From Flavobacteriales bacterium (GTDB taxonomy: Bacteria > Bacteroidota > Bacteroidia > CAIKAF01): a stretch of 32,846 nucleotides of DNA. A program made the position numbers and the translations under genes. The first letter of the stretch is position 1; every line of letters starts with the position of its first letter. The DNA is taken from positions 1 to 32,846 of the forward strand of contig JAOABX010000025.1 of assembly GCA_026418175.1 (NCBI GenBank). The letters are read 5' to 3'. Below the pieces are notes generated by a model. It was not told where the DNA came from. It was given only the letters and a program-made list of their open reading frames with translations, and did no database searches. Below, in pieces: positions 2,244-4,230 of this stretch.

Positions 2244-2431
2244 TTGGGGCGGCGGGTGAAGTGGTAGCTGGCGGTGGCGGGTGGGTGGTTGGTTTATTGC
2301 GTTGGGAGTGCCGCGTGGGCGGCGGAGGCTGACGAAGGAAGACCCCGCACGCCCCGCAGCCTGCCGTAAGGCAGGCGAGGCACACCCACCCGCATCCGCC
2401 ACTACAAACGAAACACGCCTTAGCCCCCCAA
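2244..2431. repeat. GC-rich self-complementary non-coding element
   Basis: This stretch is strikingly GC-rich in an AT-rich surrounding. It can fold on itself: TTGGGG (2244-2249) with CCCCAA (2426-2431), GCGGGTGGGTG (2277-2287) with CACCCACCCGC (2383-2393), and TGCC (2309-2312) with GGCA (2379-2382). Inside is a perfect hairpin, GCCTGCC-GTAA-GGCAGGC (2359-2376), whose loop is a GNRA-type tetraloop if transcribed. ORFs are open on both strands across it, but their Pro/Arg/Gly/Ala-rich translations look like composition artefacts. Likely explanations are an interspersed intergenic repeat or a structured RNA. The rest of the gap, 2089-2243 and 2432-2535, shows nothing I can assign. Confidence 0.55.
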
Positions 2432-2535
2432 TAATAAATTGTATGGAAAAGGCAACAGGAATTTGTGGAGAAAGGGTTCTAAAAAAATGATATGAATAAA
2501 AACATGAATGATGATGTGGTGCTTTGATGGGTATG

Positions 2536-2577
2536 TAACTTTGATTACATGCACTAAATAAGATTTAGTTACTTTTG
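2536..2577 (+). promoter_or_regulatory. Two Bacteroidota -7 promoter boxes upstream of pruA
   Basis: TAACTTTG (2536-2543) and TACTTTTG (2570-2577) both match the Bacteroidota -7 consensus TAnnTTTG. The second sits 21 nt before the chosen ATG at 2599 and includes the TTG at 2575, which argues that this TTG is promoter, not a start codon. No good -33 TTTG box is seen at standard spacing. Confidence 0.45.
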
Positions 2578-2598
2578 CCTGCAGTAAATTATCAATTT

Positions 2599-4230
2599 AT
2601 GTCGCTAGGAATATTTAATACCCCTACTCCGGTGAATGAACCGGTAAAAAGTTATGCTCCCGGAACTGCTGAAAGGGCGGCACTAAAAGCGCAAATAGCT
2701 GCCTATAAATCGCAGCAGAGGGATATCCCTATGTACATAGGTGGCCAGGAAGTGCGTACCGGGAATATGGTTTCTATTTATCCTCCGCATGAATTATCGC
2801 ATAGGTTGGGGGTGTTTCATCAAGGCGACGCAACCCATGTAAAGCAAGCCATTGATGCAGCCTTGAAAGCCAGAGAAGCATGGGCCGATTTGCCCTGGGA
2901 ACAACGGGCATCTATTTTTTTGAAGGCTGCTGAATTAATAGCAGGGCCTTATCGTGCCAAGATGAATGCCGCTACGATGCTCGGCCAATCGAAAAACGTT
3001 TTTCAGGCAGAGATTGATAGTGCTTGCGAATTGATTGATTTTTTGCGTTTCAACGTAAAGTTTATGCAGGAAATTTATGAACAGCAACCCATATCTTCCC
3101 CCGGAATTTGGAATCGTTTGGAACAACGTCCGTTAGAAGGGTTTGTATTTGCACTTACTCCGTTTAACTTTACAGCCATTGGCGGAAATTTACCGACAGC
3201 TCCGGCCATGATGGGGAATGTAGTAGTATGGAAACCGGCCAATACTCAAATCTATTCGGCCAGTGTGTTTATGGAAGTATTGAAAGAGGCCGGCTTGCCG
3301 GATGGGGTGATTAATCTGGTATATGTGAGTGGCCCCACTGCCGGAGAGGTGATTTTTAATCATCCGGATTTTGCAGGAATTCATTTCACCGGTTCAACTT
3401 CTACCTTTCAACAGATTTGGAAAACCATTGGTAATAATATTCACTTGTATCGTTCTTATCCACGCATAGTAGGAGAGACCGGAGGAAAAGATTTTGTATT
3501 TGCTCATCCTTCTGCTGATGTGAAAGCGTTGACAGTGGCGCTATCCCGCGGAGCATTTGAATATCAAGGGCAAAAATGTTCCGCAGCATCCAGAGCGTAT
3601 ATACCTGAAAGTATTTGGCCGGAGGTGAAAAAATATCTTCTGGAAGATTTGGCCTCGTTTAAAATGGGAGTGGTGGATGATTTTAGTAATTTTATTAATG
3701 CGGTGATTGACGAAAAGGCATTTGATAAAATAGCAGCTTACATTGATGCGGCAAAAAATAACCCGGATGTGGAAATTATTGCTGGTGGAAATTATGATAA
3801 AACCAAAGGGTATTTTATTGAGCCAACTGTAATACGTACTCAAGACCCGGGGTATGTTACCATGTGTGAAGAGATTTTTGGCCCGGTGTTAACCATTTAT
3901 GTGTACAAGGATGAAGAATTAGATAACATGTTGGAAATAGCCGATAAAACATCGGTGTATGCATTAACGGGGGCCATCTTTGCACAAGATCGGTATGCCA
4001 TTCATCACATGGTAAATAAACTGCGCAATGCAGCCGGTAACTTTTACATTAACGATAAGCCCACGGGGGCTGTGGTAGGCCAGCAACCCTTTGGAGGTGC
4101 GAGGGCATCGGGTACCAACGATAAAGCAGGTTCGATGATTAATTTATTGCGTTGGGTATCGCCCCGGGCAATTAAAGAAACCTTTGTGCCGCCGATAGAT
4201 TATCGGTATCCGTTTATGCAGGAACCGTAA
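2599..4230 (+). CDS. pruA: L-glutamate gamma-semialdehyde (1-pyrroline-5-carboxylate) dehydrogenase
   Basis: This enzyme oxidises glutamate-5-semialdehyde/P5C to glutamate with NAD+, the last step of proline (and arginine/ornithine) catabolism, in the cytoplasm. With the ATG at 2599 it is 543 residues, close to the usual length of the eukaryote-like P5C dehydrogenase group of the aldehyde dehydrogenase superfamily. Visible motifs are ALTPFNFTAIGGNLPTAPA (about 185-203), the nucleotide-binding FTGST (263-267), the general base in GETGGK (E293), and the catalytic cysteine in GQKCSAASR (C327). An in-frame TTG at 2575 would add eight residues but overlaps a promoter box, so I prefer 2599. No proline dehydrogenase gene is adjacent; the next gene is an unrelated division protein. 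Confidence 0.95.
   Translation: MSLGIFNTPTPVNEPVKSYAPGTAERAALKAQIAAYKSQQRDIPMYIGGQEVRTGNMVSIYPPHELSHRLGVFHQGDATHVKQAIDAALKAREAWADLPWEQRASIFLKAAELIAGPYRAKMNAATMLGQSKNVFQAEIDSACELIDFLRFNVKFMQEIYEQQPISSPGIWNRLEQRPLEGFVFALTPFNFTAIGGNLPTAPAMMGNVVVWKPANTQIYSASVFMEVLKEAGLPDGVINLVYVSGPTAGEVIFNHPDFAGIHFTGSTSTFQQIWKTIGNNIHLYRSYPRIVGETGGKDFVFAHPSADVKALTVALSRGAFEYQGQKCSAASRAYIPESIWPEVKKYLLEDLASFKMGVVDDFSNFINAVIDEKAFDKIAAYIDAAKNNPDVEIIAGGNYDKTKGYFIEPTVIRTQDPGYVTMCEEIFGPVLTIYVYKDEELDNMLEIADKTSVYALTGAIFAQDRYAIHHMVNKLRNAAGNFYINDKPTGAVVGQQPFGGARASGTNDKAGSMINLLRWVSPRAIKETFVPPIDYRYPFMQEP

Follow-up and report, generated by a model that had tools for sequence, protein, structure and literature searches.

The closest described counterpart of the element that we report here is the Flavo-1 RNA (RF01705; Weinberg et al. 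2010, PMC2864571), with which it shares both occurrence in Bacteroidota and many dispersed copies. Rfam has listed Flavo-1 since 2010, as a small RNA gene; the listing in PMC2864571 gives it as a probable RNA without an assigned function, the listing in PMC9029176 likewise carries no function, and none is given in the open-access literature that we found. According to the account in PMC9723704, F. psychrophilum has Flavo-1 matches in both sense and antisense orientation, many of them outside transcribed regions. REP/BIME sequences with RAYT (TnpA_REP) are, like our element, short imperfect palindromes that lie between genes in both orientations, favour one strand and consist of non-autonomous copies. 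REPs, however, are described as 20–40 nt long (PMC3733652), as compared to ~150 nt here, and our element has no GT[AG]G foot and occurs in some copy-rich genomes that lack a Y1 gene. MITEs of DNA transposons resemble it in being small, non-coding, dispersed and bounded by a terminal inverted repeat, but we found no related full transposon, and here a structure with fixed mismatches is kept by covariation.

In the window, by which we mean the whole 32,846-nt stretch of DNA analysed, the element occupies positions 2246–2433 on the + strand, as delimited by the covariance model R1 described below. The initial annotation, which placed it almost exactly (2244–2431), described a GC-rich, nested self-complementary block with an internal perfect hairpin closed by a GTAA loop, and all three features are present. 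The G+C content of the block is 68%, as compared to ~33% in the left flank and ~45% in the right flank, in the region where a gene starts. The block folds as a single long, imperfect hairpin with an energy of −110.5 kcal/mol (z −5.6), a value reached by none of 200 dinucleotide-preserving shuffles (mean −84.9, sd 4.6 kcal/mol); its inverted arms, 2269–2287 and 2383–2401, are 19 nt long and 89% complementary, and the perfect hairpin GCCTGCC-GTAA-GGCAGGC lies at 2359–2376. The 16-base core of this hairpin has a single exact occurrence in its own genome (G000), which leaves the idea of a separate repeat unsupported. Open reading frames had been noted on both strands: a 91-aa ORF does cross the block on the − strand (2110–2385), but no + strand ORF of at least 80 aa does, so that for the + strand the statement holds at most for shorter frames. 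We rejected a protein-coding role, reading the − strand ORF as a side effect of the GC-rich palindrome. The initial annotation set the block at a junction between accessory and core genes, a placement that we examined through its two neighbours. The left neighbour is a TauE/SafE-like gene (990–2021, − strand); to the right, ~165 bp from the block, the + strand carries an aldehyde dehydrogenase gene that starts near 2599.

BLASTN of the block against its own genome detected no second copy. The copy count by BLASTN that had been proposed thus returns a single copy, with the dispersed family being invisible to BLAST there, and shows that such counts can overlook structured repeats altogether. A scan of the window against Rfam at gathering thresholds, also proposed, by itself reports nothing on the block; its sole report is a DUF805b RNA (RF02914) at 743–779 on the − strand (37.9 bits, cut-off 35.6), which precedes a − strand ORF (480–722) without a Pfam match. 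In a distant BLASTN search of 60 relatives, G001, a species of the same genus, matched at 73%, and other genera yielded short matches to the core. This core, GGAGGCTGACGAAGGAAG in the window and mostly GGAGGCTGAGGAACGAAG elsewhere, recurs many times over in G012, G013 and G007, each time in the middle of a GC-rich hairpin, and an exact scan of ~85,000 genomes with a 20-base form of the core returned 29 stretches, all in four records labelled Bacteroidetes, Bacteroidia or Flavobacteriales. The core-aligned copies are 140–144 nt long and have scant stem sequence in common. A pattern search with the 5′ arm gave about as many matches as its reversed control. We also set aside a phage origin, two core patterns having no match in viral contigs, although this search used exact patterns only and is therefore weak evidence.

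We built R1 from eight copies (five NIVA, one CAJXKB and two from G007), leaving out the window and taking the structure from a constrained fold of one of the eight. In the window the block is its sole match, spanning the full length of the model (1–150 of 150; 43.2 bits, E 1.4e-8). In G000 as a whole R1 detects four diverged copies, C27:20104–20250, C12:44695–44846, C8:49960–50109 and the window copy itself (C17:2246–2433), which rules out a single-copy curiosity. R1 matches at E ≤ 0.01 occur in 13 of 40 related genomes. Seven genomes (G001, G007 and G011–G015) each hold at least 57–72 copies, these counts being lower bounds because 77 candidates per genome were scored; G002 has eight matches at E ≤ 0.01 plus one weaker, copies are also present in G055, which belongs to another family of the class, and the whole-genome search of G003 gave no match. 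The block is, in short, a diverged and enlarged copy of a dispersed family of ~150-nt elements in Bacteroidota, and the interspersed repeat family that the initial annotation had suggested does exist.

The layout of the element is fixed: a 5-bp terminal stem with a bulge on the 3′ side leads into short helices split by 1×1 and 3×3 purine-rich loops and, further in, into a long inner stem whose sequence is free and an apical core that is conserved. In the window copy the + strand is the better-folding one. On it, folds place the terminal stem at 2246–2250 (GGGGC) and 2423–2427 (GCCCC) and the 3′-side bulge, TTA, at 2420–2422; elsewhere the bulge comprises 3–4 unpaired bases in many copies and a small hairpin in some. 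The conserved 5′ arm GGCGGGTGAAGTGGTAGC (2251–2268) pairs with the conserved 3′ arm CTACAAACGAAACACGCC (2402–2419), both being delimited by alignment (for the 5′ arm, with the G001 copies) and by the fit to R1. The inverted repeat described above forms the variable inner stem, with its 5′ half at 2269–2287 and its 3′ half at 2383–2401. Between these halves lie an inner 5′ part that, as judged by the fold, is enlarged beyond that of standard copies (2288–2323), the apical core (2324–2341), recognised by its recurrence in relatives, and the perfect GTAA hairpin, an extra feature missing from the aligned G001 copy. The R1 match ends in an unpaired 3′ tail, CCAATA (2428–2433), where most copies have CCCAAA or similar. 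Without this tail the window element measures 182 nt, as compared to 140–144 nt in the related copies collected first. Length is near fixed at 141–162 nt in 40 copies, a range exceeded by the window copy (188 nt with its tail) and by the copy in G001:C94 (167 nt without tail). A hammerhead-like reading of CTGANGA..GAA in the core was rejected by inspection, since G001:C94 and L045 break the motif, and an intrinsic terminator was rejected because no T run follows the 3′ end.

The short helices, the 1×1 purine mismatch and the 3×3 purine-rich internal loops (GAA) of the 5′ arm reproduce the layout of Flavo-1. Compared by eye with the RF01705 consensus, the two families have a common outer plan, consisting of a short helix, a 1×1 purine mismatch, 2 bp, a GAA × GRA 3×3 loop, 2 bp, a second 3×3 loop and a free hairpin. 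A short Flavo-1 copy in G004 (L083) bears the loop TGAGGAACGA of the present family’s core, and both models find L077 (RF01705 65.6, R1 43.0 bits) and L081 (61.0 and 30.1 bits, respectively), in each case on one and the same strand and with RF01705 above its cut-off. These double matches link the families by shared descent, without linking the window copy directly. The Flavo-1 matches listed are mostly 50–150 nt long, as compared to 141–162 nt with a conserved apical core in the present family. The window copy has no match to RF01705 at the gathering threshold (cut-off 42 bits), a search of G000 at E ≤ 10 gave four weak matches, none of them at the block, and the R1-type copies L039, L042 and L205 score 25.0–27.7 bits over their whole length against the same cut-off. 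Since the layout is the same but an RF01705 match is missing, we call the window copy Flavo-1-like, and not a Flavo-1 member by Rfam’s rule.

Analysis of covariance among the copies revealed extensive compensatory change. In 47 R1 matches, none of which was used to build the model (one, L237, is the orthologue of a model-building copy), all 50 model pairs have changed on both sides at least once. Pairing cells amount to 87.4%, as compared to 53.2% when the 3′ letters are shuffled (none of 500 shuffles was as high) and 30.5–44.5% when partners are slid, and the covariation score is 0.742 as compared to 0.173 and at most 0.131, respectively; as the alignment was fitted to R1, the pair counts lean towards structure, and the slid controls use the same 47-match alignment. 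In all 18 copies examined, the core-bearing strand gives a better fold than its complement, with RNA and DNA parameters alike. Of the structured RNA proposed by the initial annotation, the single-stranded structure of the + strand, kept by covariation, therefore stands; its working form may be RNA or DNA. A single copy without compensatory change in relatives had been named as the outcome that would speak against the annotation; with four copies recovered by structure search and compensatory change throughout, its interpretation is supported overall.

Even at orthologous sites, the stems change in sequence yet continue to pair. Between G012 (40 loci) and G013 (39 loci) we counted the 23 pairs that have at least 150 flank bases aligned per side. 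Over their 1185 base pairs, 24 double changes keep pairing as compared to 2 that break it, and one-sided changes preserve pairing in 29 cases and lose it in 28; unpaired positions differ at 106 of 1099, and paired positions change about half as often. The elements are ~94% identical between the species, as compared to ~87% for the flanks (by-eye average over the 23 rows). One pair, L306/L356, alone contributes 10 of the 24 kept double changes: its inner stem is rewritten on both arms, with the outer arms and the core unchanged. A similar picture is seen at the window locus. The G001 homologue of the aldehyde dehydrogenase gene (78% identity over window positions 2533–2999) has a standard-length copy ~100 bp upstream, in the same direction as the gene, and this copy nearly matches the window copy in its outer arms, differs from it in the inner stem and departs from it in part of the core. 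Further left of the element the window and G001 have no clear similarity, so that the two copies may have arrived independently; MAFFT misaligned the elements themselves.

Block rewriting of this kind is compatible with template switching or with conversion between copies, and template switching is described as capable of producing such changes in one step (PMC8794818). The hairpin itself could be functionless, its palindromes having been kept and rewritten by mutation (template switching, quasipalindrome correction) after a past spread. The replacement of whole inner stems at fixed sites, as in L306/L356 and in the window and G001 copies at the same gene, fits such an origin. Correction should, however, close mismatches, yet the 3×3 loops, the 1×1 mismatch and the 3′ bulge persist, which argues against pure palindrome correction; the near-fixed length and the higher identity of the elements relative to their flanks also speak against it, and we consider a functionless hairpin improbable. 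Whatever the mechanism, different yet self-complementary stems at the same site in sister species constitute a natural test of palindrome rewriting.

The main rival to an action at the DNA level is a multi-copy structured RNA, in effect a long Flavo-1 RNA, the transcribed copies of which would fold and bind a protein, serving as an sRNA, a sponge or a UTR element. The covariation of all 50 pairs, the 24 double changes kept as compared to 2 broken at the 23 orthologous loci with the slower change of paired positions there, the favouring of one strand, the conserved purine-rich internal loops and apical core, and the filing of Flavo-1 as a small RNA gene are all in favour of RNA. The genomic context points the other way. 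The TAnnTTTG box, which we take to be the promoter box, is found within 80 nt upstream of one copy out of 40, the other 39 lacking it, and near-identical copies have no upstream sequence in common that could be a promoter. The direction relative to genes is not preferred either: as judged by a simple ORF finder used without annotation, 41 copies divide into 12 divergent, 10 convergent and 5 and 5 codirectional cases, plus 9 that overlap a short ORF and for which orientation was not counted, which makes the placement intergenic (32 of 41 between ORFs). Finally, the F. psychrophilum matches of Flavo-1 itself, as reported, are both sense and antisense and in many cases outside transcribed regions (PMC9723704). 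We therefore regard a structured RNA as possible but doubtful.

Other aspects of the context were surveyed as well. The median distance to a gene boundary is 35.5 nt from the 3′ end of the element, as compared to 106.5 nt from its 5′ end (Wilcoxon p 0.0008). A weak GGA[AG] motif lies 7–17 nt upstream (≤20 nt) of 19 of 38 G013 copies, as compared to 5–10 of 38 in other upstream windows. No recurrent neighbouring gene family was found in 39 loci; nine locus pairs have a common match, which we read as other repeats, translations of the element and two paralogous gene pairs.

The suggestion of a mobile-DNA remnant is borne out by signs of past dispersal. Unrelated flanks surround the five near-identical NIVA copies, type-A copies in G012 are up to 98.6% identical at different sites, and one of four type-A copies in G013 has a G012 orthologue among those compared. 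One locus pair was compared between G007 and G015 for an empty site or a target duplication; the element is present in both species, and neither was found. Searches of carrier genomes for Y1 and RVT_1 identified no mobilising enzyme: the Y1 transposase (PF01797) has no match in G000, G001, G002, G011 and G014, and RVT_1 is absent among the carriers G001, G007, G010, G011, G014 and G015. G001, G011 and G014 thus have neither, yet each holds at least 57 copies, and for this reason we rejected a retro-element despite the common 5′ cut of L196 and L204.

Atypical structures are reported to adjoin RAYT genes of the Bacteroidetes subclass 2.6 (PMC6006769), and a REP element driven by a RAYT of this subclass could be related to them. 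Elements of the present family do lie beside Y1 genes in G013 (L126) and G007 (L215), as do Flavo-1 matches in G029 and G059. Because both kinds of element are intergenic, the four adjacencies may be due to chance, and by a rough estimate the association (L126, L215, L117/L128 and L127) is not significant. The three genomes with at least 57 copies and no Y1 match speak against RAYT involvement, as do seven RAYT-like loci (L222, L223, L224, L229, L230, L231 and L232), put in or near subclass 2.6 by motif, that have no R1 or Flavo-1 match, and the missing GT[AG]G foot: no such tetranucleotide is conserved at the 5′ foot in the 5′ flanks of 40 copies. A RAYT-driven element is accordingly very unlikely. 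The Y1-adjacent elements, all within a few hundred bases, are located at 2021–2123 in L117, 2091–2191 in L127, 2371–2520 in L126 and 775–923 in L215, and in G029 the only Flavo-1 match of the genome adjoins its only Y1 match. When Y1 loci were scanned with a stringent structure descriptor written by hand, only the known L128 Flavo-1 copy was returned, plus chance matches in AT-rich or coding sequence.

The element, then, is dispersed and combines a conserved single-strand shape with one favoured strand, near-fixed length and rewritten stems. We infer that it works at the level of DNA and, at roughly even confidence, favour a large hairpin of the REP/MITE type that spread in the past and is read by a protein in trans. 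R1, built without the window, finds the block, three more copies in G000 and at least 57–72 in each of seven relatives; every pair covaries and the core strand is consistently the better folder; the copies are intergenic, with no preferred gene direction, a promoter box upstream of one in 40 and no recurrent neighbour; near-identical NIVA and type-A copies occupy different sites; the homologous gene in G001 has a standard-length upstream copy with a different inner stem; and Flavo-1 matches in F. psychrophilum lie either way, with many reported outside transcribed regions (PMC9723704). Against the DNA-level reading, the long retention of structure at 23 orthologous pairs exceeds what is expected of a selfish relic, the one G007/G015 comparison and the enzyme searches gave neither an empty site or target duplication nor a mobilising enzyme, and the copies show no significant strand preference when referred to GC skew (25 of 39, p = 0.11).

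Working at the DNA level, one strand (+ here) would fold in its single-stranded state; DNA, too, supports stable tandem GGA-type loops. A trans-acting enzyme or DNA-binding protein would read the mismatched loops, the apical core and the overall length, not the letters of the stem, and its past action would have distributed copies across intergenic DNA. Judging by the genomes examined, neither Y1 (RAYT/IS200) transposases nor reverse transcriptases would be required. The inner stem has probably been rewritten as a block by local template switching or by conversion between copies, and the four diverged copies in G000 may be either relics or resident protein-binding hairpins.

More speculatively, the family may belong to a phylum-wide class of fixed-length ~150-nt hairpins, with Flavo-1 as the short form, that lies outside the RAYT/REP system and is read by its shape by a dedicated Bacteroidota protein. 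What is recognised would be the tandem purine loops, the apical core and the length, with the stem sequence ignored. If so, inner stems would be swapped as blocks by template switching or inter-copy conversion, so that tens to perhaps hundreds of loci could stay structurally identical while their letters diverge, and the copies would be resident and selected at each site instead of being mere relics. With tens of copies per genome, conservation at orthologous sites and a 50-bp structure that covaries throughout, the longer family makes a statistically strong target for finding the reader protein and for deciding between RNA and DNA.

Several individual copies have features of their own. In G007:C6 two copies (43896–44044 and 47864–48012) lie 4 kb apart and are identical at 144 of 149 positions; the second is complete in G015, where a contig ends within the first. 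The NIVA copies L196 and L204 lack their 5′ part and share an internal starting point (GTTTTTG...), as though copying had halted at one place. Next to type-A copies in G012 and G013 (L038, L041, L044, L050 and L052) lie clusters of other short palindromic or tandem repeats, namely GACGCAAGATGTTGCGTC, GAGACGGGAGGCATCCCGTC and CATTCACCATTCATC, and the copies L199 and L210 adjoin another palindrome, CCCTAAGCGACTTTGAGTCGCTAAGGG in its L199 form.
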